A stretch of DNA of 53,921 nucleotides from the IMG/VR virus record IMGVR_UViG_3300024529_000001, positions 1 to 53,921 of that record; one strand, given 5' to 3'. Of this stretch, positions 3,047-37,657 are shown piece by piece. How positions within the stretch are numbered: position 1 is the stretch's first letter; every line of letters starts with the position of its first letter. The notes under the pieces were generated by a model, which did not search any database, was not told where the DNA came from, and saw only the letters and a program-made list of their open reading frames with translations. Both the position numbers and the translations under genes were made by a program. The stretch comes from a virus.

Positions 3047-3205
3047 ATGAGTAAATTAACTAAATTATTTTTATTTCATGTAATATCATTTATTATATTG
3101 ATGTTAGTTTTAAAATTAAATTGTATTGAATATATTTTTATTCAATTTATTTTGATTTTGAATTATAAATTTTTAAATTTATCTTCCTCAAGAAGACACA
3201 ATTAA
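3047..3205 (+). CDS. Tiny membrane protein, 52 aa
   Basis: This ORF fills most of the 242-base gap before the helicase gene. It starts at ATG 3047 after ATATCA and ends at TAA 3203-3205. The product has two hydrophobic stretches (about residues 7-24 and 27-43) joined by N-C-I-E, and a basic tail (SSSRRHN). It is likely an inner-membrane peptide. Function unknown; small membrane proteins in phage early regions are sometimes host-takeover or exclusion factors. The remaining gap bases (3206-3241) are AT-rich leader for the helicase. Confidence 0.45.
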   Translation: MSKLTKLFLFHVISFIILMLVLKLNCIEYIFIQFILILNYKFLNLSSSRRHN

Positions 3206-3241
3206 AAACTTACTTAAAACTAACTAAACTTAATATATTAT

Positions 3242-4234
3242 ATGATTGGACAATGGAAATCTCAAAAAGAAGCATATCAAGAATCTTTAGTATATTTAAA
3301 AGGAAGAAAAAATGGTTTAATAACCAGCATTAAAACACCCTGGGTAAAATTTAATGATGCATCTACAAATGGTATTGAATGGAATTCAATGACTGTTATT
3401 GGAGGTAGACCTGGTGCAGGTAAAACATTAATTAAAGACCAACTTGTAAGAAACGCCTTTCCTTTAAATCCCGCTGAAAATTTTAGAGTTTTAGAATTTC
3501 AACTAGAAATGGTTGGTAAAAATTCTGCTATACGTGCATACGCAAGTGAACTCGGAACAAGTTATAAATATTTATGTAGTGCAGATGGTGTTTTATCTGA
3601 CAATGATTTAGCAAGATGTTTTGATTATGCTAAAAAAGCTATCAAATATCCAATTGATATTGTTGAAGAAGCACCTACTGTGTTAGAATTTAAAACAATT
3701 ATAACTAATTATTTAAACCAACATGTAAAAGTATTTAAATGTTCAAAAACTGGAGATGATATAAAAGAATATACTAAAACTATAATAACTTTAGATCATT
3801 CTATATTAATACGTAATAAACCTAAACAAAGTAAGCAAGACATGCTTTATGAGTTAGGTGAAGTATTAACATCACTCAAAAGAAAATATCCAATTGCTTT
3901 TATAATATTATCACAACTTAATAGAGGAATTGATTCTCCTGAAAGAAATGAAGATGGTAAATATGGTAATTATATACTAGCTTCTGATATTTTTGGATCA
4001 GATGCTTTGTTACAACATGCAGATATGGTTGTAGGTTTAAATAGACCTGGTTCACAAAAAATTAGATTTTATGGACCTGAAAGATATATAATTGAAAATG
4101 ATAAATTGTTAGCTATGCATTTTATAAAATGTAGAAATGGTGAAACAGGAATAGCATTTTTTAAAGCTGTATTTGAAAATATGAAAGTTTTAGAAACTGA
4201 AACACCACCAAAAATGAATCTAAATATAAGATAA
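3242..4234 (+). CDS. DnaB-type replicative helicase (RecA fold)
   Basis: The 330-aa product has Walker A GGRPGAGKT (residues 54-62), Walker B TIITLDH (D185), a sensor-like ILSQLNR (222-228) and a C-terminal IKCRNGETG loop resembling the K-N-R-N-G-x-T-G arginine-finger region of DnaB (SF4). It lacks the long N-terminal primase-interaction domain of full DnaB (usually about 450 aa). It would unwind DNA 5' to 3' as a hexamer at the phage fork, with the primase and family-B polymerase encoded downstream. Its stop overlaps the next start (TAATG). High confidence in the ATPase fold and good confidence in helicase. Confidence 0.85.
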   Translation: MIGQWKSQKEAYQESLVYLKGRKNGLITSIKTPWVKFNDASTNGIEWNSMTVIGGRPGAGKTLIKDQLVRNAFPLNPAENFRVLEFQLEMVGKNSAIRAYASELGTSYKYLCSADGVLSDNDLARCFDYAKKAIKYPIDIVEEAPTVLEFKTIITNYLNQHVKVFKCSKTGDDIKEYTKTIITLDHSILIRNKPKQSKQDMLYELGEVLTSLKRKYPIAFIILSQLNRGIDSPERNEDGKYGNYILASDIFGSDALLQHADMVVGLNRPGSQKIRFYGPERYIIENDKLLAMHFIKCRNGETGIAFFKAVFENMKVLETETPPKMNLNIR

Positions 4235-14630: not shown

Positions 14631-16052
14631 ATGCCAACAAAAATAGGAAACATAAGTGAAGCAGAAATTAAACAAGTTTCTCTTCCAACAGGATTTAGTA
14701 AACAATATGTAACAGTTCCTCACGGATATATAATTGATACTGTTAAAAATTTATTAAGTCAGAAAAATTACGAAATAAATAAAACTGAATACAGATGTAC
14801 AAATGGTGGAGAAGTAGTTCAGGGTGTATATTATATTAATCATGGTGATGATCCAGAATTAGGTCTTATGTTTGCATGGTCAAATTCATATGATAGATCT
14901 CAGAGATTTAAATGTGCAGTAGGTGCACATGTATTTGTATGCGGAAATGGTATGCTTGTAGGAGATATGGCCAATTATGGAAAAGTACATAAAGGTGATA
15001 AATCTCAAGTATTAAAAAATGTAAGTGATCATATTGAGTTACAAATAAATTCTGCTTCTAATTTTTATGATATGATTAAAAAAGATAAAGAAGCTATGAA
15101 AAATAAATGTTTAACTGAAAGTGAAATAGCTGAATTAATGGGTGTTTTATTCTTTAAAGAAGATTTAATTACAAGTGGACAATTAATTACTGCTAAAAAG
15201 CAATATTTAGAACCTGCTCATGATTATAATGCTCCTTTAAATTCTTTATGGACTATATATAATCATATTACATATGCTTTTAAATCATCTCATCCTAAAA
15301 AATGGATGGATACATTAGCTAATTTTCATTCATTTATATCAAAAAGATATATAGAAGACAATACAGTTACTGTAAATCCAAACCAGGTAACATTAGATCA
15401 GTTAATTAATCAAGAAGATGTTATTGATAAAGAAGTGACTCCAAACCCACTTGATAATTTATTAGGAACAGACGATATGAATTCTTGTCCTGAAGCTACT
15501 GAAGAAGAAGCTAATGAACTCTTACATGGAGTTGATAATACTGGAGGTTTAGAACCTGAACATAATCCTGTTAGTTTAAGAGTGAGAGATGATAAAATAG
15601 AACAGTTTGATGATGAAACAGGTGAAGTAATAAGAAATGAAGCTTTAGATAATTTAGCTGATGAGGAAGCTGATATGATTGAAAAAGAAGAGATCATTGA
15701 GGAGAGAGAAGAAGAGGATGTGTTTAATGCTATTGCTGATAAAGTCAGACCAGAAGTTTCTGAAGAAATAATTGAAAAAACAGAGGCTGAAGACATTTTA
15801 GGTGAGGCAGAAAATATAGAAGAATCTAATAATGATTTATCTTTTGATAATTATTTTGGAGAAGAGTCTATAGATGAAGACATAAATCTTTCTGATATTA
15901 ATGACATTAAAACTGAACTTAAAAATGGATCTCAAGAAGATTTTGATGAGAAAGTTGAAAATGAATCAGACGTTGAAAATGTGGAAGATGTGGAAGATAT
16001 TGTTGAAGAACCAAAAGAAGACAAATTGGAGTTGCCTGAATTTGATTTTTAA
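14631..16052 (+). CDS. DUF932-like protein with long acidic tail
   Basis: The 473-aa product starts one base after the polymerase stop. Residues about 1-260 resemble phage/plasmid DUF932 proteins: a Gly-rich strand region with FAWSNSYDRSQRFKCAVGAH and VFVCGNGMLVGD, followed by helices. Residues about 265-473 are extremely rich in Glu and Asp (for example EREEEDV, VENVEDVEDIVEEPKEDK) and probably disordered. DUF932 proteins have no settled function but travel with recombination genes. The acidic tail could mimic DNA or recruit partners. A terminator follows directly. Confidence 0.65.
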   Translation: MPTKIGNISEAEIKQVSLPTGFSKQYVTVPHGYIIDTVKNLLSQKNYEINKTEYRCTNGGEVVQGVYYINHGDDPELGLMFAWSNSYDRSQRFKCAVGAHVFVCGNGMLVGDMANYGKVHKGDKSQVLKNVSDHIELQINSASNFYDMIKKDKEAMKNKCLTESEIAELMGVLFFKEDLITSGQLITAKKQYLEPAHDYNAPLNSLWTIYNHITYAFKSSHPKKWMDTLANFHSFISKRYIEDNTVTVNPNQVTLDQLINQEDVIDKEVTPNPLDNLLGTDDMNSCPEATEEEANELLHGVDNTGGLEPEHNPVSLRVRDDKIEQFDDETGEVIRNEALDNLADEEADMIEKEEIIEEREEEDVFNAIADKVRPEVSEEIIEKTEAEDILGEAENIEESNNDLSFDNYFGEESIDEDINLSDINDIKTELKNGSQEDFDEKVENESDVENVEDVEDIVEEPKEDKLELPEFDF

Positions 16053-16179: not shown

Positions 16180-16656
16180 ATGGCATCAACAAAAACATAT
16201 CTTAGAGATGGTAAAAATTGGACAAAAGAAGAATTAAATACTTTATTGGACCAACATATAGAAGGTGAAACTGATAAAACTATTGCATATGTACTAGATA
16301 GAAGAATCAAAGGAGTACGTAATAAAAGAACTGAACTTATGAGAGAATTAGTAAATGACTTTACTAAACTAGATACTAATGGTTTAGATGAAAAAGGAAT
16401 AGAACCTGGAGAAGGTTACTATATAACTAAAGAAAATTATGAGAAAATATTAAAGCTTATTAATAGTGATTTAGATTCTAATTTATTTAATTTATTAATT
16501 AAAGAAAATTTAGAAAAAAATGCTATAATGAATACATTATTTAATGATGGTGTAGCAGGAATTGTAATACAAAATGCAATTGATGCTGCAAAAGCAATTA
16601 CAAATGATGACATTGAAAAAAGAAAAATAGAACTTAATGATTCAAAAAGTAACTAG
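16180..16656 (+). CDS. Small Myb/SANT-like protein
   Basis: The 158-aa product has an N-terminal segment (about 10-50) with NWTKEELNTLLDQH, then TIAYVLDRRIKGVRNKRTEL, which follows the W-T-x-E-E...L...R...R..KR pattern of Myb/SANT helix-turn-helix domains. The rest is helical and mixed-charge. It stands alone after the 16.06-kb terminator behind an A-rich leader of about 95 bases, so it probably has its own promoter. It ends with TAG and overlaps the radical SAM gene by 20 bases. A DNA-binding regulator is plausible. Confidence 0.6.
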   Translation: MASTKTYLRDGKNWTKEELNTLLDQHIEGETDKTIAYVLDRRIKGVRNKRTELMRELVNDFTKLDTNGLDEKGIEPGEGYYITKENYEKILKLINSDLDSNLFNLLIKENLEKNAIMNTLFNDGVAGIVIQNAIDAAKAITNDDIEKRKIELNDSKSN

Positions 16657-17491
16657 AAAATCTATGATAATAAGGCCATCAGGAAGGAGTAGTGATTATA
16701 TTGCTCCTTCTTTTGGTTATGGTTGTTTATTAAACTGTTCTTATTGTTATATGAAACGTAATGTTCCAGAAGGATTAAGTGTTGCAAAAAATATAGAAGA
16801 TATATTAACTGCAATAAACAATCATTCATTATTTGATACAATAGAAAAACCAAACCAAACTGATCCTAAGTATATAACATATGATATTGCATGTAATGAA
16901 GATTTTGCTCTTCATTCTAAATATTATAATTGGAAAAAGATATTTCAATTTTTCCTTGAACATCCTTATGCAAAAGCAACATTTGCTACTAAAATTATTC
17001 CTATTAAATTTTTAGAATACAATCCTTTAAAAAAAGTTAGAATAAGATTTAGTTTAATGCCACAAAAAATATCTAGTATTGTAGAACCAAATACTCCTGA
17101 TATTATAGACAGGATTAAAGCTGTTAATGCGTTTATTGAAGCAGGATACGAAGTTCATTTAAATTTTAGTCCTGTTATAATTAATGATAACTGGCTTAAA
17201 GATTATAGTTTATTATTTAATATGTGTAATGATTATATAGATTACAAAGATGAAGTAAAATCAGAAGTTATATTTTTAACACATAATAAAAATAAACATC
17301 AATATAACATTGATAATAATATTCCAGGAGAAGATTTACTATGGAATCCATCAACACAAGAAGAAAAGACTTCTAGTTATGGCGGAGTTAATGTAAGATA
17401 TAAAAGATCATTAAAACAAGAATCTATAAACTTGTTTAAAGAATTGCATGATAGTATTATTCCATGGAATACAATAAGATATATTTTTTAA
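16637..17491 (+). CDS. Radical SAM protein, spore photoproduct lyase-like
   Basis: The 284-aa product carries the radical SAM iron-sulfur motif C-x3-C-x2-C as GCLLNCSYCYMKR (C30, C34, C37). Its length and the I-x-P-S-x-G-Y-G-C context fit the SplB-like branch, which in bacteria repairs spore photoproduct in DNA. Some phages carry related radical SAM enzymes. A second possible start at 16664 (MIIRPSG) lies 8 bases after the upstream TAG and would drop nine residues. The substrate is unknown: DNA repair or base modification are options. Last gene of the plus-strand arm. Confidence 0.75.
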   Translation: MIQKVTRKSMIIRPSGRSSDYIAPSFGYGCLLNCSYCYMKRNVPEGLSVAKNIEDILTAINNHSLFDTIEKPNQTDPKYITYDIACNEDFALHSKYYNWKKIFQFFLEHPYAKATFATKIIPIKFLEYNPLKKVRIRFSLMPQKISSIVEPNTPDIIDRIKAVNAFIEAGYEVHLNFSPVIINDNWLKDYSLLFNMCNDYIDYKDEVKSEVIFLTHNKNKHQYNIDNNIPGEDLLWNPSTQEEKTSSYGGVNVRYKRSLKQESINLFKELHDSIIPWNTIRYIF

Positions 17492-25417: not shown

Positions 25418-28400
25418 TTAACAATTTTGATCAAATATTTCTAATATTTGGTTTATACTATTCTCTATATTATCTTCTAACATCTTATTAGTTATATTCT
25501 GACTATTATTTATATTATCAGTTATAACACTATTTTCTATAGATTTTGGATTTATGTATCCAAATTTTTTATAAAGCTGTTCACTAAGATATTGATAAGT
25601 TTTAGGTGCTTTTCTATATAAATTTTCTCCATAACCACTGCTTAAAAATAATAATTTATTTCCATTATTCATTTCTGTAACATAATAATCTATATCAGTA
25701 TCAATATTTTCTTTATTAAATTCAAAATTTTCATCATTTTGAATATCATTTAAAATAATTCCCATATTTCCATCTACATAATTTTTAGACTTAATTTTAT
25801 ATGCTTTGTTATTTAGATAAAAGTTTTCATTTTGTACTGGTAAAACAATTAACTCATTAGTATTTTCAGTTTTTTCAACTAAACTGTCTATATAAGCACC
25901 ATTTTTTCTATAAGTATTAATAAGCTGTATAGATGAATTATTTATATAAATATTATTTATATCAGTAAGTGTTTCTTTTAAATTACTTGTTTTTTCTGTC
26001 CAATTTTTAAATCTCCAAGCTTTTTGATTTTGATCTTCATATTTATTAATAAGACTTTTAGTAAATGAATCTAAATATTCTGCACTTTTCATTCTTCCAT
26101 CATAAGTTTTATCATTAAACATATCAATGACATCCTTATGAGCAGACTTTAATACTTCTAATATTTTTTCATTAGGTACACCTCTTACTAAAGATAGCGG
26201 ACTATTTATATCTTGTCCTGTTTGAAAAAACGCAAAAAATGGAAAATCTTTAAAAAACTCTGTTATCATTTTATTATCTTCTTCATTTTCTACCTTTTTT
26301 ATATTTGGATCCATTAATTCTGAAACATTTAAATAATAATTTTCAAAAGTTTCACCGTCATCTATTTTTTCGTTATACTTTAAATTAGTCACATAATTTC
26401 CTTTATCAATTACTAAATTGCTTAATATTTCGTATTGATTAATTAAATCTGGATGTTTATCTAAAATTTCTGATAACCTAACCGCATAAGTATTAGTTGA
26501 TTTAAATAGTTTTTGTTTATTATATATGTTATCTAATGTTTTTTGATTTAAATAAAAATCATAAACTTTTTTTAGACTTTCTTTTTTCTTTTCTGTTTCT
26601 TCTTCAGCAACATATTCATCATATAAATCAGTAAAATATTTATCATCATATAAATCTTCTGCTGTTGTTGAAGATTTTAATAATTCTTTTTGTAAAGCAA
26701 ATTCAAAATAATCATCAAAAGAAGTTATATATCTACCAATTTTAGGATCTTTTTTAGCATCTAAAAAATCGCTATTAAGTTTATTTGAATTTACATATAT
26801 AACATCATCTTTAATTGCTACACCTTGTTTTAGATTTTGTACATATTCAATTTTTAAATCTTTTTCAACTTTAAGGCCGCTTAATACTAATTTTCCATCA
26901 ACAATTTTAGGTAAAAAAGATTCTCTTATTTTATTTTGAAACATAAATGATACAAGATCATTTTTAAAAATATTAACAAATCTTTCTTTACCATCTACAT
27001 CATTAGTCATTCCCATCTTTTTCAATGGAACGCTTCCTGAAGCTATTTCATTAGATAAATGATTATTTATATCTGGATGATTTCTTAATTCAAATAAATT
27101 AGATAAATACTTTAATGAAAATTCTGATATATCAAATAATCCTATTATAGATGTATTAATCATTTTACTAATTAAATTTGGATCAAAATAGTTTAAATTT
27201 AATAATCCTAATTTTGCTTTTTCTCTTTCAAATGCTGCATATAATGAAGTTGATTTTTTAGTATCATAAGTTAAATTAGTTTTAATCTGTGTCATTTCAT
27301 TAGATGGAGCTCTAAGTTTTAAATAATGATAAAACGCTGCTTGCGCAACTTCTCTATTATTATCATCAATACCATTCATTGCAATATCTTTTAAAATTTC
27401 AATATTATCTATTTCTTTTTCATACTTTTCAATTTCTGTATTTGCAATCTTAAAAGAATTAAAATTAAAATTTTTCTTAGATGTATTAAATTCTTTAGGA
27501 AATTTATTTAAAGGATTTAATATAACAGCTTCTTCAGCTTTTATATTTATTAACCTAAGACCAAATGGAGATTTACTCGCCTCTTCAGATTGCTTTGTCA
27601 AGTATGCTTTTGATAATTCATAAAATACAGATTTTTTTATTCTAACTTGTTTTATATAATTTACTACATAAGGATTAGAAATAAAATAAATTGCTTTTTC
27701 TTCTGGAACACCGCTTTCAGTTAACAAAGTAAGTAAAGGAGCATTTTCAATTCCTGCATTAATATCAAATAACCAGGCTTTCTTTTCAACATCTACTGCA
27801 CCATTTATTAATTGAGAATTTGTATCAGATATTTTAGTTGTACCATTAACATCATAAATATTAGAAAGAGATATATACTCTTTTTTATTTTTTAAAAATT
27901 TATTATGTGATAGCTTTAATTTAACTTTTTGTGTAATTCTTGGTTTATTACCTGTATGATAAACAGTAAATTTTGCATCTATAAGTTGTAAATATTCAAT
28001 AAATCTTTCATCAACACCAGGCATATCACCAACAATAAAAGTTACTCCTCTTTTAGCTTGTTCTACTATTTTTTGTTTTGTATACTCACTTAAATCAGTG
28101 TACTTATATGAAGCATTACGTGCTAACATAACAACTGAAGTTTCATCATTTAAAATATTTTTTGAATCTTCATTTTCATCAACTTCTTCTAAATTTATTT
28201 TTCCTTTTATTTTATTTAAAGATGTATTACTACTACTATCTTCTTTTCTTATTTCACCAATAAAACCATTAGCATCTTTACGCATTGCAGCATCTTTAGC
28301 ATCTCCTTCAGCTGTACCTTTTCCTTTATTACTAGATCCAGGAATAGCTTTTGTATTAAAATCAATATCATTTATATATGCTCCCATTCTATTATATACA

Positions 28401-31400
28401 GAATTAAATGTATTGTTTACAGCATATAAACCTAATACAGCTTTTCCAATTGCATTAGATGCATGTTTATACAAATTATAAATTGGTTCAAATATTCTTG
28501 CAACTTCTAATACATCACTTTCACCTTCATCAGTATTTAATTGCTGATATTGAGAATATTTCTTTTTACCAGCAGGACTTTGAGCCATTTTATCAGCTAA
28601 TGCTTCTAATGATGCATTACCTAATGGTAAAACTAAATCAATAAAATTTTCTGGTTGCTCAAGTATTTCTCTTATAACTTTAATAGTGTCATTATCTATA
28701 CCTTTTGAACCAACAGAATTTAACTTTCTTTTATTTTCAGCTAATTTTTCATATAAAGGTTTTAGAATATTTTTTTCTTCTTTATTAAAAATTTCATATT
28801 CTTCTGTTAAATAAAATTGTTCTAATGCTTCTAATCTATTTTCTACCTCATTAATAGCATTTCTAGTTTCATATAGTTTATTAGTAACATATGTTCCTTT
28901 TACTTTTAATGATTGAGTATATAATTCATTCCAGGTAGTAAGTAATTGTTTTTTAAGTTTTCTATCAACTTTTGATTCTTGTCTAAAAGTTTCTTCTTTT
29001 TCTTGAAACTCAATTTGAAGCTCAGGACTTAATTTTTTCTTTCTTTCTTTCCACTTACTTTTTCTCCAATTATTTCTTTTTTCTTTTATTTGATCTTTTA
29101 TAAAATCTATTTTATTTTCTAAGTCTTCTTTATTTTCAGTTACATCTAAATTTTTAATTAATTCTGTTTTACCATTAATAACTGTTAAGTTAGGCATATA
29201 TATAGAAAGCTTATCAACATCAAAATCTGAACCTGATTTAGCAACCATTTCAGAAGGAGGTATAATTATATTACCAGCTGATTCAGGCAAAAATTCTCCA
29301 ACTTCCATAAATTCCATAGAGTTAAGACCTTGAACTGGTATACGTACACCAACCATAGTAATCATTCTTCTATTGTCATCTTTATTTAACCAATCTTCAT
29401 TTTTTATTACCTTATTCAATCTTTCTCTAGTACGAATTTTATCACCTTTTAAATCTGTTAAATTAAGTAATTTTGTAAAATCACCTTGTAATGCAATTTT
29501 AATTTTCATTGCAGAGGTCAGACCATTATTAGCATTTTCTTGATATGAAGCTAAACCATCAGTACCATATGTTTGTTTATCTAATTCTGTTGCGTTTGTA
29601 AACTGTGAACTTTCAAAACCAGAATTAGAAACTAATACAAGCATTTCTCCATTTAGTTTTGACTTAATTAATTTATTATTAACTAATGCCATTAACATTT
29701 TTTCTATTTGTGGAGCATTTAGAGATAAAGATAAATCAGTAACTATTTCACCATTATAATCAACATTAATAAAATCAAGCTCATGTGCAGCAAGATCTCT
29801 AGCTTTTAATTGCCTAGCTACCATTTCAACTAAACCTGAAACATCTTCAGATCCTAAAGTATATCCTGATTCTCTTAATATTTCTTTTTTAGTACTTTCA
29901 ATTTTTTGTTCTAATAAATTTTCATATGTAGTAGCAAAAGCTTTCATTTTTTTAGAAATAGCTCTTCCTTTTTCAAATATATTTAACTCTACTAATTTTC
30001 TAAATTGAGTTGAAAATGTAGCCTTTCTTTTAAATTCTGGATGAATATCAATTTGATCTTTTAAGTATTCTAAATAAATTGGATTAGAAATAAATTTACT
30101 TTCTTCATTAAATTCTCTACTTTCTGTAGGTTTTATATCTCCTTTATATAATAATGAATTTTCACCATTTTCAGTTATTGTAGAAATCTTACTTCCTGAA
30201 CCATATGTACCATAAGTAATATTTTCTCTTGTCATTTTATTATGTAACTTTTCCAAGTTAGTTCCTTCAATTACATTTGGTATTAAAGGCATTAATGAAT
30301 ATTTATGAAAACCTGTTAAAGGTACACTATTAGTAGTAGCTAAAGGTCCAAAATATTGATATTTTCTAACTGGAAAAAATTCTGATAAATTGTATTTAGA
30401 TACATCTTCTTTATTAATAATTTTTTGGAATAACTCTTCTTGTTTTTTTGACCATTTACCTTGTAATTTACCAAGTATTCTATAAGCATCAAATGTAAGA
30501 TATCCTTGACCATCACCTTCTTCCATTTTTAGATATGGTTTTATTGCACTTTGAACTGCATTATTTATCATATCATCTTTTACAGTTTTAGATAATTTAA
30601 GATTTTTATATCTTTCTATATAATATTTTCTAAATGCTTTTTCATAATTTTCAGCATATGCAGATTCTATTTCATTTTCTTTTAAAACTATAGTATTAAG
30701 TTTACCATTAAAATATAAAAGAACATTAGACATTAAACCAAGTGATTGTGCGTATGTTGTATTACGTGTTGGATTTGAAGTATTAGGAGCAGTAAATACA
30801 TTATTAATCCAATTATACATTGCTTGATCAGTTCTAAAGATTTGACCTGCAGAAGCCATCGCTGCATTTCTTTTATGAAAATCTTCTTTTAGCATATTAT
30901 ATTGAGAAGGATCTCCATAAAATATTGTCATTAAATCAAATTTATTTAACATTTGATTTGCAACATATGAGCTTACTATTATTTCTGCCATTTGTTCTTT
31001 TGAAAGCTTTTCATCAGTATATTCTCCTAATTCTTTAGATATTTTATTTTCTAAAGACTCTGATATAAAAGGCATTTCATTAAATTTCTGATATGTCTGT
31101 TCATAAACATTATTTAAATAATCATTTAAATCAAGAGTTAACCAATCTCTTAATGACCAATTTAAATCATAGTCATCATCAAGAAATTCTTCAACTGTAT
31201 CATATTCTTTATCTAATACATCCATATCCAATTGATCTTGAATATTATCATAAAGCTCTTCACTTATCATTCCTTTAAAAGTATACAACTCTGTACCTTT
31301 AGCTTTTATTTTATTTGTACCAACTGTATATCCTAAAACTTCAGGTTGACCACCTTTTTTTATTATTTCTATTTTTTTAATATCAGCTATTATATGATCT

Positions 31401-34400
31401 ATAATTTTGTTAATAGTTTTTACTGTTCCATCAGTTGTAACAACTTCACTAAAATTCTCACCATCATAAAACTTTATTGTTTTCTCATAATCTTTAGAAA
31501 ACTCTACACTGTCAATATATACATGTTTATTTTTTCCAGAATTTTTAACTCTTGATGGCGAAGCAGCTAGTGATGTAGATTTTGAAGCATGTCTTGGAAA
31601 TTCAGGATTACCTCTTATTATAGTATCATGTATATCTTGAATTAATTTATCATTATCTGTTAAATCAGCTGTTACATTTGACTTATCTAAAATTTCATCT
31701 TTTACTTTAGCAACTCCAGATAAATTTGTTAATTTAAGTACTATTTCTTTTTTAGTTGTTTTATCAATCAGTTTTGGACCTTCTCCATTTCCAATATCAA
31801 ATATTGAATTTAATATACCATTTGATAATACAGAAGGATTATTTCTAAAATCTAAGAAAGACATATAAGGTTTAGAAACTAATTCAGAATAAGTTTTAGA
31901 TTTATTAATTGCATTTACAATTCTATTTACAGTCCCATTATAAGTATGTTCATTTTGTAAATCATTGTTTGCGTTATTTACAGAAAAATTAGAATATTTA
32001 TCAGAAAATTTAGATTCAGCATTTAATATTTCAGTTACTCTAGCAGTTTCACTTGATAAGTCTTTAATTATATCAAATATTAAACCTTTTCTTTTTTTAT
32101 CTATTAATGCAGTATATATGTATTTTATTGATTCTTTATATTTTTCTTTATTATTAATCTCATTAATTAATAAGTTATTATTATCTAAATTAAAACCAAT
32201 ATTTTTTAAAAATGTAAAAGGATTTTTTTGAGCAGCATAATAATCAGGATAAGTTCTTCTAAACTTAGTATTTTCTCCAGTTTTTAAAACAGGTACTTTT
32301 CCTCTTCCTTTTATTTTTATTTCTGTTATATACTTATTTGGATCTCTTTTTATTGATTTAAAAAATGAAGAAAAATTAGCTCTTATTTTTTGTAAATTAC
32401 CATGTGCAGCACCAGAAGTTAATTCATATTCAAGAATAGATTCATAATCTTTCTTCCCAGATTCACTTTTTATTTCTTTTTTAGTATTTAATTTAACAGT
32501 TATCTGCTCTAATGGTACTCTTGATTTATTAAACACTTGCCAAAAATCTGTCCATATGTCTACTTCAGAATCTGCTTTAGCTAAATTAGGATCACCTAAT
32601 TTTTTTAATAATTCATTTATTGTACCTGCTACATTTGCATCTGCTTTAGAAGCTTTTTTAAGAGCATCATACATTTCTTCTGGATGTTCTATTGACTCTA
32701 AAGTTTTTAATAATCTACTCCAAGTTTTATTAAATTCAGAAAGTTCATGAATATCAATTTGATTAAGTTTTGGTGAACCATCTTCATTATATTTATGTAA
32801 ACTTTTTATTAAAAATAAAATTTGTTTTGACGCACTTTGAATTGTTGAAAGCTTATTACTTGACCCTTCAATTACTTGTTGCCATTGTTGATTTTCTGTG
32901 TTAACACTTATTAAGTCTTTTACTGCTTCTGCATCTAAAGAATCAGTTAAACTTCCTGTATATTTAGAGTTATTTCTATGATATGCTGCTACACCTTTTG
33001 TAGATCCTAAATCACTTATATCACCCCATTGAGATATTGCATAATCTAATAATTCTTTTTTATATTCTGTATCTGCAGTTTCTCTAAGTTCTGTAAACTT
33101 ATATAAAGCAAATTGATATGCATGTTTATAGAAAAATTCAGGAGCGGTATGCCATGCAGATGACCATTTAGTATTTTTATCTTGATCAATCCTCATATTA
33201 ATAAATGTAGAAATAAATGAATCTATAGATTTCATTAATACTCTTGACTTTTGAATGTCTAAATTTTCTACATTTTCATTTAAAGACTCTATTCCGTAAT
33301 TTAGTTTTCCCCATTTAACATTGTTAATAGAATAATTTCTCTGTTCAAAATCCCCATTATAAAGCTCTTTTTGTAATTTTCTTACTGAATTTAATATTTC
33401 TGGCCTTACAATTGCACTTTCATAAGAAGTATTAGTAAATAAAGATTTTAGAAAGTTAAATATTCTACTAAATATATTATTTCTTTTAGGAGAATCTTTC
33501 TTAGTAATTTTTCCTCCTGAAAGGCCATACGCTCTATAATCTTCTGCTAAATACTCTTCTATTTCTTTATCATTAGCTTCAGAAAACTTTTTAGTTACTC
33601 CTTTATATGTTACAAAAGTCCCAGTATCTTTTTTTACTTCATTATATAATTCAGATTTTTCTTCTAGAGTTAAAAATAATTGGGTGAAACCATGCCATGA
33701 TTCATGGTAAAGATCTGTGTAATTAAAACCATCATGTAATGTTATACCATCTACTGTAAACTGTGCATATATATTAGAGTTTACAATATTAGATATTATT
33801 TCATATGGTAAATACTTAGACATAGGATTTGAATCATACCATTGTTTAGCTCTTTTTTGTTGTCTTTTTGTTTCGGCTCTTTGAGTTTCTCCTGCAGGTT
33901 TTGTTCTATATAATTCTTCAGAAAGATCATCAGTAGAATTAAATCCTGTATTATTCTTTTTAGGTTCTTTTTTTATTTTTACCTCACTAGTTTGTGCTGG
34001 TTGAGTAGATTCTAATTCCTGTTGAGCTAATTTTAAACCTTCAAGAAAAGCTTGGTCAATTAACTGATTAGTATTATGCGTGAAATTTTCATATTGCATT
34101 AACTTTTTAGCAGGTTCTGAATTAGGATTTTGTTTAAATGATTCAACTACAAGTTGCTTCATTAAACCTAAACTATCTGCTGCTTTCATTTGTGCAACAG
34201 TAGCTTTGCCTCTTATTTTTCTTCCGTATCCAGGTGTAGTTTTAAGATTATTATATTTATTATAAGTTGTTTGATCAAAAGTACCAGACTTATTAGATTG
34301 ATAAGCATGTTCTACACTACCATATTCTCTACCTTCCCAAGTAAATTTTCTTGGGGCTAAATTAGATAATACTTTGGTAGATTTTTCAGATTCAGCTTGT

Positions 34401-37400
34401 CCCCAATAAACATTTATAGTTCCTTTTCTTTCAACCTCACTAGTTTGTGGTGTTGGTTGAGCTTTTAATGCAGTAGTAAGAATATTTTTAATATTTGTTT
34501 TTTCTTGAGCGGTAAGTTTACTACCTCTATTACCTGCGACATTAAGAGTTTTAATATTATTATCAGCTAAGAATTTTCTTAATTGTTCCGCTGTAGGGTT
34601 TAGAATAAAAGGCTTACTATGTTTTTTAGCATATCTTTCTGTAGCAATTTTTCCTGCACTATCTGCACTAGTAGCAAAATAAGCTGTTCCATCTGAATTT
34701 AAAGTATTCATTTCTGTTCTAGCAGTATAAGCATCAGTTTTACCTTCTGCATATTTATCCTGTTCTTCTGCTGTGATTTCTTTGACACCATATTTTTCTG
34801 CTAAAGAAGGGTCTTTTTTACCAGCTTCTGTTAAAAATCCTACAGGAGCTGTTCCACCAGTTTTCATTCCTAATGCTTTTCCAACTTCTAAACCAATCTG
34901 ATCTACACCTGTTTGCCCTCCAGAAATAACTTTAGTAACTTGTTGTGTTGGTTTTAAATTAGGTATTTTTTCTAATTTTTTTAATTTATATGGTTTTTCA
35001 ATTCCAGAAAATTCAGATGGATAAGTTGTATATTCACCTCTTACAGATGCAGCTTTAATAGGAATTATTAATAATTCAGATGCACTAAGACCATCTGTGT
35101 TATTTAAGAGAATGTTATATGTTGATAATTGTTTTGAAAACTTAGAAGCATCACTTTCACTACCTTCAAAACCACTGTCAAAGAACTTACTACCAGCTCT
35201 TTTGGTTTTCATATCCCAAATCTTTATTTCTCCAGTCTTCTTATTTATAGTTAAAAGATCTAATGTTCCTGCTATACCTAACTCATCATTATAAACAAGC
35301 ATTCCTTCTGAATAAACTTTTTCATCTTCTGAAATATTTTCTTCAGTCCAATAATCAATTGCATCAATAACATCTTTATACGCTGATCTTTTAATTGCGT
35401 TCTTTTTAAACTCACTATTAGCAATAAAGTTTTTATATAATTTGGGACCATCTTCAGAAAAATAATCTCTAAAAATTTCATCAAAAGTAGTTCCAATAAC
35501 TGCTCCTGTTTTAATTCTTAATATTGCATCTTCTTCAGTGTTATTATTTTTATCTATAGGATTATCTAATAAATCTAAAAGATAACTAGACTCAAGCCTG
35601 TTTCTATCAATATTTATAGTTCCATCATCATTAAACACAAATGCATCTTTTTTTTCTACTTCTCTTAAATTATCAAGAGTGTCAGATGATTCAGATATTA
35701 CATCCGTTACTCTATTATAAGTACGTATTACATTTCTATTTTCATCAAGTTGAATATATGTTTTTTTATCAGGCGATAATATAAAATTTTCTGATCTAGC
35801 TACAATCTGATCTAATACAACTATACTATTAGCTACAGAAGAATTTTTAAGACTTGTATTACCTTTTATTATTCTTTTATTTCTTTTAAGATTATTTAAA
35901 TCAGATACAGAAAAAGTGTAATAACCTCCAAGTAATGGTACTTGACCTTCAGCATTAACTACAAAAGGAGATGAAAAGTTTTCTTTTACAAAATCATTAT
36001 AATCTTTTTCTTGTGTTTCAACTTTATTATTTTCTATAGAAATTATATCATTTATTTTAGTTCCTAATGATCGTGAATCAAGATTTAATTGTAAAACAAA
36101 GCTTTTTTCTATTTTCTTTTTATTTTTATCTGTTATAGAATATTTATAACCTTCTATTTTTTTCTCTATATCTTTTTTTAATTGCTTCTTAGTATATACA
36201 TCCCCTTTTTTATTTTTTACAATTAATTCTTTTGGATTTTTTTTGTCATAACTATATTTATAATCACTTATATACGTATATTGTTTAATTAATTTAATTC
36301 TTTCTAAAGCCTTTATATCCAAGTCATCATTTAAAAGAAGTTCTTTTATAAAATCTGCGTACTTAGTATCCTTTAGAAGTAAATAATCTATTGGTATATT
36401 AGGTGTAAAAGGATCAGAAACTTTTATAACAGCCTTTCCTTTATTCTCTCCTACTTTTTCTATTTCAATATCAAAAGGTAAAGTTTCATTAAAATTTATT
36501 TCACTTAATGGAACCTTTTCTTCATAGTTAACAACTGCATGACCTGGATTTACAGTTGTAATTTCAGTAATAACTTTATTATTCTTTTTATCACTTTGAA
36601 TATATTTTATTGCATCATCTACAGCTTTCCAATCTGCATCAAATCTTTTTTTAACTTCTTTAACTGATTCTCCAGTTTTTTTAGCTACATCTTGAAAAGA
36701 TGCTAAACCTCTATAAAAATTTTCTTTATTTCCAAAAGTTCTTCTAACATTATCATATGAAGCAATTCCTTCTTCAGCAGATACCACATTATAATTACCA
36801 GAGTCATCTTCCTTAAAATATAATATATTACCATTATTATCTGTAATAACAGCAGATATACCATTTTGATAATCTACTTTTCTCTGAGCTAATGTTTGTT
36901 TCTTTTGAACTACATCTTTTTTTAATTTTTCATCCCATCTATAATCAATATGTTCTTTATCAGTAATTCTTCTTAAATGATCTGGTCTTAAATCTTCTTT
37001 TCTCAACATTGTTTGAGACATAAGAGTTATTTTAAAACCTGTATGTCCTCCAAAAGTAAGATCAGACATTGATAAATTATCTGATTTATCTAATGCTAAT
37101 GCAAATGCTTTTTTTAAATTTTTATAAAATGTATTTTCTTTATCTAAGATTCCTTGTTGAGATGATAGTGCAGCATACAAGTGAGGTCTAGTTATTGTTG
37201 ACGCAACATCTTGCGGTTTAGCATCAAAAATAACATTTGTTACTCTACTTTTTTCATCTATTGAATTTCCTGCATTATTTCTTTTTAACTTCTTTTTTTG
37301 TTTACGAGATAATGTAGAAGGATCAATTTTAAAATATTTAAAAAACTTGTTAAAATCACTAAATTCTTCTACTAATTTTCCTAAATTATCTAAACTAAAA

Positions 37401-37657
37401 CCTTTACCTATTTGTTGCAACAATAATTCTTGATTTCCCGATATAACTTGCAACATTATACTTGGTGTTAATTGCATAAGAGATAATGCTGTTAAAGGTA
37501 CTACACCGTCTTCTATTGAAGCATTATAATAAGTATCAATAATATTTTCAACATTAATTAACTCATCTTTTTGAAAAGATTGTTTAGCAAAAGCTGAAGC
37601 AACACCTAAAACTGCTATTTGCTGTTCTTCATTTAATATTACACATTTAACAGACAT
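25418..37657 (-). CDS. Giant crAss-type virion RNA polymerase polyprotein
   Basis: The product is 4079 aa. The RNA polymerase catalytic loop is GSDFDVDK (D2811, D2813, D2815), the DxDxD that holds Mg in the double-psi beta-barrel of beta'-like polymerases and in crAss-like virion polymerases. Upstream modules: PD-(D/E)XK nuclease (about 720-860; D800, D815-x-K817), cpYpsA-like SLOG Rossmann fold (about 905-1070; GGQTGVD 913-919), NADAR (about 1085-1235; SVEHAYQ with E1116) and HESWH (1318-1322), a zincin motif. Downstream is a second SLOG-like fold (about 3170-3240; IVGDMPGVDERF). It ends in Asn-Cys. Likely injected to transcribe early genes; roles of the other modules are inferred. Confidence 0.88.
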   Translation of the reverse strand: MSVKCVILNEEQQIAVLGVASAFAKQSFQKDELINVENIIDTYYNASIEDGVVPLTALSLMQLTPSIMLQVISGNQELLLQQIGKGFSLDNLGKLVEEFSDFNKFFKYFKIDPSTLSRKQKKKLKRNNAGNSIDEKSRVTNVIFDAKPQDVASTITRPHLYAALSSQQGILDKENTFYKNLKKAFALALDKSDNLSMSDLTFGGHTGFKITLMSQTMLRKEDLRPDHLRRITDKEHIDYRWDEKLKKDVVQKKQTLAQRKVDYQNGISAVITDNNGNILYFKEDDSGNYNVVSAEEGIASYDNVRRTFGNKENFYRGLASFQDVAKKTGESVKEVKKRFDADWKAVDDAIKYIQSDKKNNKVITEITTVNPGHAVVNYEEKVPLSEINFNETLPFDIEIEKVGENKGKAVIKVSDPFTPNIPIDYLLLKDTKYADFIKELLLNDDLDIKALERIKLIKQYTYISDYKYSYDKKNPKELIVKNKKGDVYTKKQLKKDIEKKIEGYKYSITDKNKKKIEKSFVLQLNLDSRSLGTKINDIISIENNKVETQEKDYNDFVKENFSSPFVVNAEGQVPLLGGYYTFSVSDLNNLKRNKRIIKGNTSLKNSSVANSIVVLDQIVARSENFILSPDKKTYIQLDENRNVIRTYNRVTDVISESSDTLDNLREVEKKDAFVFNDDGTINIDRNRLESSYLLDLLDNPIDKNNNTEEDAILRIKTGAVIGTTFDEIFRDYFSEDGPKLYKNFIANSEFKKNAIKRSAYKDVIDAIDYWTEENISEDEKVYSEGMLVYNDELGIAGTLDLLTINKKTGEIKIWDMKTKRAGSKFFDSGFEGSESDASKFSKQLSTYNILLNNTDGLSASELLIIPIKAASVRGEYTTYPSEFSGIEKPYKLKKLEKIPNLKPTQQVTKVISGGQTGVDQIGLEVGKALGMKTGGTAPVGFLTEAGKKDPSLAEKYGVKEITAEEQDKYAEGKTDAYTARTEMNTLNSDGTAYFATSADSAGKIATERYAKKHSKPFILNPTAEQLRKFLADNNIKTLNVAGNRGSKLTAQEKTNIKNILTTALKAQPTPQTSEVERKGTINVYWGQAESEKSTKVLSNLAPRKFTWEGREYGSVEHAYQSNKSGTFDQTTYNKYNNLKTTPGYGRKIRGKATVAQMKAADSLGLMKQLVVESFKQNPNSEPAKKLMQYENFTHNTNQLIDQAFLEGLKLAQQELESTQPAQTSEVKIKKEPKKNNTGFNSTDDLSEELYRTKPAGETQRAETKRQQKRAKQWYDSNPMSKYLPYEIISNIVNSNIYAQFTVDGITLHDGFNYTDLYHESWHGFTQLFLTLEEKSELYNEVKKDTGTFVTYKGVTKKFSEANDKEIEEYLAEDYRAYGLSGGKITKKDSPKRNNIFSRIFNFLKSLFTNTSYESAIVRPEILNSVRKLQKELYNGDFEQRNYSINNVKWGKLNYGIESLNENVENLDIQKSRVLMKSIDSFISTFINMRIDQDKNTKWSSAWHTAPEFFYKHAYQFALYKFTELRETADTEYKKELLDYAISQWGDISDLGSTKGVAAYHRNNSKYTGSLTDSLDAEAVKDLISVNTENQQWQQVIEGSSNKLSTIQSASKQILFLIKSLHKYNEDGSPKLNQIDIHELSEFNKTWSRLLKTLESIEHPEEMYDALKKASKADANVAGTINELLKKLGDPNLAKADSEVDIWTDFWQVFNKSRVPLEQITVKLNTKKEIKSESGKKDYESILEYELTSGAAHGNLQKIRANFSSFFKSIKRDPNKYITEIKIKGRGKVPVLKTGENTKFRRTYPDYYAAQKNPFTFLKNIGFNLDNNNLLINEINNKEKYKESIKYIYTALIDKKRKGLIFDIIKDLSSETARVTEILNAESKFSDKYSNFSVNNANNDLQNEHTYNGTVNRIVNAINKSKTYSELVSKPYMSFLDFRNNPSVLSNGILNSIFDIGNGEGPKLIDKTTKKEIVLKLTNLSGVAKVKDEILDKSNVTADLTDNDKLIQDIHDTIIRGNPEFPRHASKSTSLAASPSRVKNSGKNKHVYIDSVEFSKDYEKTIKFYDGENFSEVVTTDGTVKTINKIIDHIIADIKKIEIIKKGGQPEVLGYTVGTNKIKAKGTELYTFKGMISEELYDNIQDQLDMDVLDKEYDTVEEFLDDDYDLNWSLRDWLTLDLNDYLNNVYEQTYQKFNEMPFISESLENKISKELGEYTDEKLSKEQMAEIIVSSYVANQMLNKFDLMTIFYGDPSQYNMLKEDFHKRNAAMASAGQIFRTDQAMYNWINNVFTAPNTSNPTRNTTYAQSLGLMSNVLLYFNGKLNTIVLKENEIESAYAENYEKAFRKYYIERYKNLKLSKTVKDDMINNAVQSAIKPYLKMEEGDGQGYLTFDAYRILGKLQGKWSKKQEELFQKIINKEDVSKYNLSEFFPVRKYQYFGPLATTNSVPLTGFHKYSLMPLIPNVIEGTNLEKLHNKMTRENITYGTYGSGSKISTITENGENSLLYKGDIKPTESREFNEESKFISNPIYLEYLKDQIDIHPEFKRKATFSTQFRKLVELNIFEKGRAISKKMKAFATTYENLLEQKIESTKKEILRESGYTLGSEDVSGLVEMVARQLKARDLAAHELDFINVDYNGEIVTDLSLSLNAPQIEKMLMALVNNKLIKSKLNGEMLVLVSNSGFESSQFTNATELDKQTYGTDGLASYQENANNGLTSAMKIKIALQGDFTKLLNLTDLKGDKIRTRERLNKVIKNEDWLNKDDNRRMITMVGVRIPVQGLNSMEFMEVGEFLPESAGNIIIPPSEMVAKSGSDFDVDKLSIYMPNLTVINGKTELIKNLDVTENKEDLENKIDFIKDQIKEKRNNWRKSKWKERKKKLSPELQIEFQEKEETFRQESKVDRKLKKQLLTTWNELYTQSLKVKGTYVTNKLYETRNAINEVENRLEALEQFYLTEEYEIFNKEEKNILKPLYEKLAENKRKLNSVGSKGIDNDTIKVIREILEQPENFIDLVLPLGNASLEALADKMAQSPAGKKKYSQYQQLNTDEGESDVLEVARIFEPIYNLYKHASNAIGKAVLGLYAVNNTFNSVYNRMGAYINDIDFNTKAIPGSSNKGKGTAEGDAKDAAMRKDANGFIGEIRKEDSSSNTSLNKIKGKINLEEVDENEDSKNILNDETSVVMLARNASYKYTDLSEYTKQKIVEQAKRGVTFIVGDMPGVDERFIEYLQLIDAKFTVYHTGNKPRITQKVKLKLSHNKFLKNKKEYISLSNIYDVNGTTKISDTNSQLINGAVDVEKKAWLFDINAGIENAPLLTLLTESGVPEEKAIYFISNPYVVNYIKQVRIKKSVFYELSKAYLTKQSEEASKSPFGLRLINIKAEEAVILNPLNKFPKEFNTSKKNFNFNSFKIANTEIEKYEKEIDNIEILKDIAMNGIDDNNREVAQAAFYHYLKLRAPSNEMTQIKTNLTYDTKKSTSLYAAFEREKAKLGLLNLNYFDPNLISKMINTSIIGLFDISEFSLKYLSNLFELRNHPDINNHLSNEIASGSVPLKKMGMTNDVDGKERFVNIFKNDLVSFMFQNKIRESFLPKIVDGKLVLSGLKVEKDLKIEYVQNLKQGVAIKDDVIYVNSNKLNSDFLDAKKDPKIGRYITSFDDYFEFALQKELLKSSTTAEDLYDDKYFTDLYDEYVAEEETEKKKESLKKVYDFYLNQKTLDNIYNKQKLFKSTNTYAVRLSEILDKHPDLINQYEILSNLVIDKGNYVTNLKYNEKIDDGETFENYYLNVSELMDPNIKKVENEEDNKMITEFFKDFPFFAFFQTGQDINSPLSLVRGVPNEKILEVLKSAHKDVIDMFNDKTYDGRMKSAEYLDSFTKSLINKYEDQNQKAWRFKNWTEKTSNLKETLTDINNIYINNSSIQLINTYRKNGAYIDSLVEKTENTNELIVLPVQNENFYLNNKAYKIKSKNYVDGNMGIILNDIQNDENFEFNKENIDTDIDYYVTEMNNGNKLLFLSSGYGENLYRKAPKTYQYLSEQLYKKFGYINPKSIENSVITDNINNSQNITNKMLEDNIENSINQILEIFDQNC
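33981..34005. repeat. Linker repeat copy A (NADAR side)
   Basis: ACCTCACTAGTTTGTG plus CTGGTTGAG. The first 16 bases are identical to copy B and the rest differs by a 3-base gap and one change. On the coding (minus) strand it encodes a QPAQTSEV linker that ends the NADAR module of the 4079-aa protein. Confidence 0.7.
34434..34461. repeat. Linker repeat copy B (between SLOG and NADAR)
   Basis: ACCTCACTAGTTTGTG plus GTGTTGGTTGAG, encoding AQPTPQTSEV. A weaker third relative (TTGTTGTGTTGGTT, about 34940-34953, encoding KPTQQVTKV) precedes the SLOG module, so each of the two NAD-related modules is bracketed by the same linker. Confidence 0.7.

Follow-up and report, generated by a model that had tools for sequence, protein, structure and literature searches.

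SLOG and NADAR as probable exchangeable cargo at a repeated DNA joint in a crAss-like virion-RNA-polymerase-type polyprotein

The stretch of DNA analysed here (the window) is a single IMG/VR virus record, IMGVR_UViG_3300024529_000001, of 53,921 bases. Its plus strand carries a replication block composed of a DnaB-like helicase, a primase, a PD-(D/E)XK exonuclease and a DNA polymerase; facing it on the minus strand is a block of giant open reading frames (ORFs), a layout familiar from crAss-like phages, a group that ranks with the most abundant phages. No match to the window was found when a phage collection was searched by Megablast. One giant ORF encodes a protein of 4079 amino acids (aa), in which the region around an SDFDVD motif (DxDxD) resembles annotated catalytic subunits of crAss-like RNA polymerases (RNAPs), with a best expectation value (E) of about 1e-9 and matches in 80 records, among them phages of Bacteroides and Cellulophaga. 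Judged by this homology, from which the word "virion" is also taken, the ORF is a crAss-like virion-RNA-polymerase (vRNAP)-type polyprotein, in agreement with the original prediction made from the letters of the sequence. It contains a SLOG domain followed by a NADAR domain (Table 1). We propose that these are very probably two cargo modules in an exchange slot, and that recombination at a repeated DNA joint diversifies the cargo of the virion.

On its sequence, the identity of the SLOG domain is clear. Residues 910-1052 match Pfam cpYpsA (PF12694) over model positions 1-134 of 145 with E=9.6e-23 (81 bits, cut-off 26.2), and the GGQTGVD motif by which the domain had been recognised lies at window 34901-34921. 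A second SLOG-like stretch, GVTFIVGDMPGVDERFIEYLQ, is found at window ~27,900-28,120 (minus strand), at aa ~3180-3250 of the same polyprotein. The order of the polyprotein segment of aa 3107-3269 differs in L015, one of the viral records denoted here by L numbers (aa 2911-3095, after the part matching 3243-3573), and because of this reordering the segment with the second SLOG-like stretch may also be a mobile module.

The NADAR domain downstream of SLOG is divergent. A Pfam scan of the whole 4079-aa protein did not detect NADAR, and the excised segment aligns to the model (PF08719) over its first two thirds, with E=2e-4 and 22 bits, below the cut-off of 35.1; because that cut-off is a detection threshold and not a defining property, the segment is still classed as a divergent NADAR. 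Relatives were collected with both the segment and an alignment as queries, and all eight that were scanned with Pfam match NADAR (best E 2.2e-4). Eighteen sequences were aligned, the relatives being 60-87% identical to the segment of the window, and E38 and K45 (SVEHAYQSNK; SVEHAYQ at window 34298-34318) as well as H116 (FTH) are invariant in 18/18, so that no loss of the catalytic glutamate is seen. These three residues correspond to the key residues described for NADAR: E43/E88 (catalytic), K50/K95 (phosphate-contacting) and, in the last strand, a Glu, an Asp or, in phage NADARs, a His (PMC11543638, PMC11125620). In the segment, D123-x-x-F126 matches the spacing of D130-x-x-W133 with Trp changed to Phe, in an alignment by spacing rather than by structural superposition. 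An AlphaFold2 model of the segment (predicted local distance difference test, pLDDT, 76; predicted template-modelling score, pTM, 0.74) has as its only credible matches in the PDB 8bau (NADAR with ADP-ribose, ADPr; probability 0.99, E 0.06, TM 0.48) and 2b3w (YbiA; probability 0.82), both with weak E-values, and a NADAR profile run against PDB sequences gave no NADAR match, just chance matches near E 0.14. From alignment and model together, the segment is taken as a divergent phage-type NADAR.

SLOG and NADAR are bordered by copies of a linker, a DNA stretch of ~28 nucleotides (nt), AACCAACACAACAAACTAGTGAGGTTGAA, with the in-frame translation PTQQTSEVE. Across the whole 12-kb gene, the linker consensus scores highest at the left, middle and right joints of the window, and CACAAACTAGTGAGGT occurs exactly in both the middle and the right joints. 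Record L011 (IMGVR_UViG_3300027861_000040) encodes the same polyprotein. Its DNA is 96.1% identical on the left flank, which runs to window 34938, and 98.4% identical on the right flank, which resumes at window 34001; between these points SLOG and NADAR give way to two other modules. One is ART-like, with a match to ART-PolyVal below the cut-off (E=4e-4), and the other is an AlkB-like 2OG-Fe(II) oxygenase (PF13532 E=1.7e-8, above cut-off). L032, L017 and L046 hold the same slot with zero, one and two modules, respectively, in flanking DNA that is 88-97% identical on both sides, with the breakpoints inside linkers. L020 and L026 have 8 kb on the left (92%) and 1.2 kb on the right (97%) in common, with one versus two different modules between, while L025 and L035 are 99.7% identical over 1.5 kb and diverge at the linker. 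What L003 has in common with the window is limited to the NADAR module and its linkers (84% DNA identity over 484 nt), and the ends of high-scoring segment pairs fall at linkers in several independent pairs of records. Over 91 sites, nine left modules are combined with two or more modules on the right, and 12 right modules with two or more on the left; a module starting YPVDTN, for instance, is preceded by four different left modules.

The NADAR and RNAP parts of the polyprotein have different histories. Between the window and L003, NADAR is 87% identical and RNAP 34%; in the trees, the NADAR of the window is nearest to that of L003 and its RNAP groups with that of L076, and each forced pairing is rejected (approximately unbiased test, p=0.014 and 0.00013). 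In the RNAP tree the row of the window was represented by L011, whose protein sequence is identical there. L076, with an RNAP core 70% identical, has a NADAR at the same place and no SLOG motif; L014, L015 and L016 have no matching module at the NADAR position; and in other vRNAP polyproteins NADAR is present at several different distances from DxDxD, on both sides of the motif. SLOG and NADAR are thus separate, exchangeable modules, two of many.

An alternative in line with the original prediction is that the pair forms a fixed, dedicated unit on the polymerase, injected against DarT-type DNA ADP-ribosylation or Thoeris signals. Both domains are real and retain their catalytic residues, and an association of SLOG with NADAR in phages is known (PMC9503650). 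However, the pair is replaced in L011, NADAR is found without SLOG, and at the C-terminus of the L014 polyprotein a SLOG module 38% identical to that of the window occurs without NADAR. In addition, the His-type NADAR of phage T4 cleaves guanosine-ADPr in vitro and did not protect cells from DarT1 (PMC11125620). A fixed unit is therefore unlikely and, because of the T4 result, DarT1 as the specific defence that is counteracted is very doubtful.

Could the swaps be products of short-read assembly, with unrelated modules fused at the repeat? A repeat of 28 nt can mislead assembly at small word sizes, and in L045 the frame is broken at a linker. Misassembly is nevertheless disfavoured because the junctions are 99.7-100% identical across separately assembled metagenomes, three or more in each of three groups (L017/L021/L037, L034/L048/L050 and L025/L035/L047). 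The frame is kept at 42/43 sites of the survey described below, continuous homology bounds the swaps on both sides, and the conflict between the NADAR and RNAP trees is independent of linkers. With these points against it, an artefact is extremely improbable. The frame break itself, at L045 8632, affects one of four near-identical records (the others being L034, L048 and L050), and could be a sequencing error or a failed exchange.

A first linker pattern (36 bits, derived from the first few copies) matched at 43 sites in 39 stretches of viral contigs; 42 of the sites are in frame, giving (P/Q)QTSEV(E/K) within a long ORF. As controls, the reversed pattern had one match and the same peptide written in commoner, synonymous codons had six; two of these six have a common 31-aa frame, and the others are in ORFs unlike RNAP polyproteins. 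Cellular genomes (257 Gb) contained three matches, of which two have nearby stop codons in the linker frame and none, when translated, resembles an RNAP-polyprotein joint. No reversed-pattern match was present in the 40 records scanned, and all copies of a record are on one strand. The motif of the crAss-like RNAP core was found in 33 of the 40 linker records, the other seven being incomplete. With a second, looser pattern, 43 stretches were matched; many were new and nearly all again lay in long ORFs, although L093 and L094 look like unrelated chance matches. Cultured phages gave chance-level partial matches only, and no isolate with the linker was found among them.

Regarding the modules beside the linkers, the recognised domains are SLOG, NADAR, ART, AlkB-like, GNAT-like, kinase-like and DUF7831. 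Pfam analysis of 69 linker-adjacent segments returned six families only, with 1-3 members each, Lipase_chap being probably spurious. DUF7831 lies beside the linker in L025, L026, L053 and L102, with four different left neighbours. By eye only, the modules right of the linker at L101 6646 and L095 5415 resemble another NADAR-type domain (GREFRNAEHAYQ and NPTELAKSKGNLAESYPITFNGKNY, respectively). A guessed DUF4326 identity for a module of L051 was dropped, as Pfam gave nothing.

The linker is conserved more as DNA than as peptide. Column information is near 2 bits over much of its core and is at background ~8 nt upstream of the 21-mer and immediately after it, with a sharp drop outside about 28 nt. 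If the peptide alone were conserved, GAA and TCT would be expected in most copies, given the codon use of these genes (GAG 21%, AGT 29%), and this is not what the joint shows. In copies outside the scan pattern, a set limited to six or fewer mismatches from the consensus and so retaining some bias, from which the synonymous-codon scan is free, agreement with the consensus is 230/266 (0.865) at third codon positions and 414/532 (0.778) at first and second positions. Since third positions are kept as well as the others, the conservation points to DNA and not to protein. Alternatively, PTQQTSEVE could be kept for its role in the protein, as a flexible spacer or as a site at which the zincin or another protease frees the modules, with recombination independent of the linker. 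Its reading in frame within long ORFs (42/43 sites) agrees with such a role, and zincin peptidases are thought to cut polyvalent proteins (PMC5512222). But the commoner-codon pattern was found in six places, where about five times 39 would be expected if the peptide alone mattered, and T->S, S->N, S->T, E->G and V->I changes occur in linker copies while silent sites stay. This alternative is improbable, and a protein role may be additional to the DNA role of the linker.

The unit structure of module plus linker, the alleles with zero, one and two cassettes and the single orientation within each record could also mean that the linker is recognised by a site-specific recombinase or belongs to an integron-like system, in which module and linker form the cassette, or that it is part of a small in-frame mobile element. 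On folding, however, the consensus linker forms no hairpin beyond chance (z -0.6 and -0.2; one copy in the window has z -2.75), the copies differ at many positions, and no stand-alone cassette or dedicated recombinase was identified, although no systematic integrase search was made. We give this explanation little credence.

We infer that the linker is used as homology for recombination. The slot lies between the conserved N-terminal part and the zincin-like region of the vRNAP-type polyprotein, with modules of about 50-180 aa spaced by the in-frame ~28-nt linker. During co-infection the linker would offer 20-30 bp of in-frame homology, so that any module could be joined to any other, most likely by homologous recombination or single-strand annealing. 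Whole modules would be inserted, deleted or replaced with the frame unbroken, and related phages would in this way share a polymerase scaffold but differ in the cargo attached to it. Several observations weigh against exchange at the linker as proposed. The left joint of the window is without three codons, and the NADARs of L005, L007 and L008 are without linker, so the linker is not the sole route of NADAR movement. The sequences are all metagenomic contigs, in which no event of recombination and no recombinase was seen, nor was any virion observed. Furthermore, the role as "cargo" rests on few recognised domains, because most modules are without known function. A broader proposal, which we hold tentatively and with somewhat more doubt than confidence, is that crAss-like phages keep a common module pool with an in-frame DNA joint, from which the virion polymerase draws its cargo in varying combinations across lineages, and that the joint is kept because it promotes recombination. 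Such a pool would diversify injected effectors by cassettes exchanged within a gene.

By analogy, the polyprotein probably enters the host with the DNA. This is plausible because the crAss-like vRNAP is translocated into the host along with the DNA, as PMC7886860 states on the basis of work on phi14:2, and because RNAP proteins of phicrAss001 were detected in virions by mass spectrometry (PMC10172136). Once inside, SLOG could bind, and NADAR hydrolyse, a NAD-derived nucleotide or an ADP-ribosylated base, blunting a host defence based on NAD or ADPr; the chances of this role appear to us evenly balanced. Of the two kinds of substrate, we favour the NAD-derived nucleotide, which the pair would most likely bind and cleave. 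Viral SLOG and NADAR domains have been predicted or argued to act on soluble ADPr derivatives, and some are packaged in the head (PMC9503650).

The polyprotein shares with the crAss-like vRNAPs (phi14:2 gp66; phicrAss001 gp47/gp49/gp50) a homologous DxDxD core in a giant multidomain protein and a transcription block opposite the replication block. It differs by its exchangeable SLOG, NADAR, ART, AlkB-like and other modules, none of which were found in the passages of PMC7886860 and PMC10172136 that were searched. Polyvalent proteins of phages and conjugative elements also combine many unrelated enzymatic domains and zincin-like regions in a single chain that is probably injected. They share the ART-PolyVal domain with the present family, and cassette-wise recombinational variation has been suggested for them; neither a conserved DNA linker as joint nor precise swap alleles figure in that account, and the word "linker" is absent from the text (PMC5512222). 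Effector-type domains of several unrelated kinds are likewise combined in a phage polypeptide here, with SLOG, NADAR and the HEXXH region in the window and ART-PolyVal in L011 and L049. The SLOG-NADAR-Macro domain networks of viruses likewise couple SLOG to NADAR, but without mention of a crAss-like polymerase fusion ("crAss" has 0 occurrences) or of an exchange joint (PMC9503650). Polymorphic toxin systems resemble the polyprotein in having a constant delivery body and recombining cassettes, and differ in what is exchanged, namely the C-terminal tip of the protein along with an immunity gene (PMC3482391). Here the modules are internal, with linkers on both sides; the exchanged stretches are wholly within the ORF, with no room for an immunity gene, for which no search was made. 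The boundary sequences of lambdoid phages lie between genes. They too are short and conserved, and mosaicism has been proposed to arise by recombination at them (cited in PMC3029335); the joint described here, in contrast, is coding, in frame, repeated within one gene and common to distantly related phages.

The original prediction named no earlier description of the fusion; as worded there, it is not new. Fusions of SLOG with NADAR and the packaging of ADPr domains in virions have already been reported or predicted (PMC9503650), and cassette-like variation is published for polyvalent proteins (PMC5512222). No paper was found in which a crAss-like polymerase carries NADAR or SLOG, or in which the joint is described, in a literature search that had subscription papers and preprints outside its scope. 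The novelty of the polymerase placement and of the joint is provisional. If the cargo of an injected polymerase is indeed reshuffled at a common joint, the joint would be a simple handle for new counter-defence and host-takeover domains, useful for discovery because most adjoining modules are without any Pfam match. It would also allow a direct test of a long-standing idea, that short sequences are conserved in phages as points of recombination; here such points lie within one gene and in frame.

Table 1. Features of the putative polymerase polyprotein and its candidate cargo slot, in window coordinates.
Feature	Position	Strand	Basis
Polymerase polyprotein, 4079 aa, putative crAss-like vRNAP type, hosting the candidate cargo slot	25418..37657	-	ORF; homology of the DxDxD region
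Predicted RNAP catalytic region with SDFDVD (DxDxD), aa 2810	29123..29440	-	Motif; homology
HEXXH (HESWH) of zincin-like metallopeptidase region, right of slot	33692..33706	-	Motif; region 35-43% identical in L014-L016
Right joint, linker GCACAAACTAGTGAGGTAAAA, AQTSEVK	33977..33997	-	Linker match
Stretch replaced in L011, 936 nt by 971 unrelated nt (ART-like + AlkB-like)	34002..34937	-	blastn breakpoints
Module 2, NADAR, phage (His) type, E38/K45/H116 kept	34013..34423	-	Pfam; alignment; AlphaFold2 model
Middle (SLOG/NADAR) joint, linker CCACAAACTAGTGAGGTTGAA, PQTSEVE	34430..34450	-	Linker match
Module 1, cpYpsA-type SLOG	34499..34930	-	Pfam; PDB 3imk E=2e-10
Left joint, partial linker AAACCAACACAACAA, TSE codons missing, reads KPTQQ-V	34940..34954	-	Second-highest consensus score in the 12-kb gene
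PD-(D/E)XK-like domain, aa 759-867, left of slot (weak)	35057..35383	-	Pfam PDDEXK_1 E=0.002, below cut-off

Outside the polyprotein, the replication block includes a spore-photoproduct-lyase-like radical S-adenosylmethionine gene at window 16637-17491 (plus strand; PF20903 E=3e-24), and a DUF932 protein adjoining the DNA polymerase gene is encoded at window 14631-16052 (plus strand).

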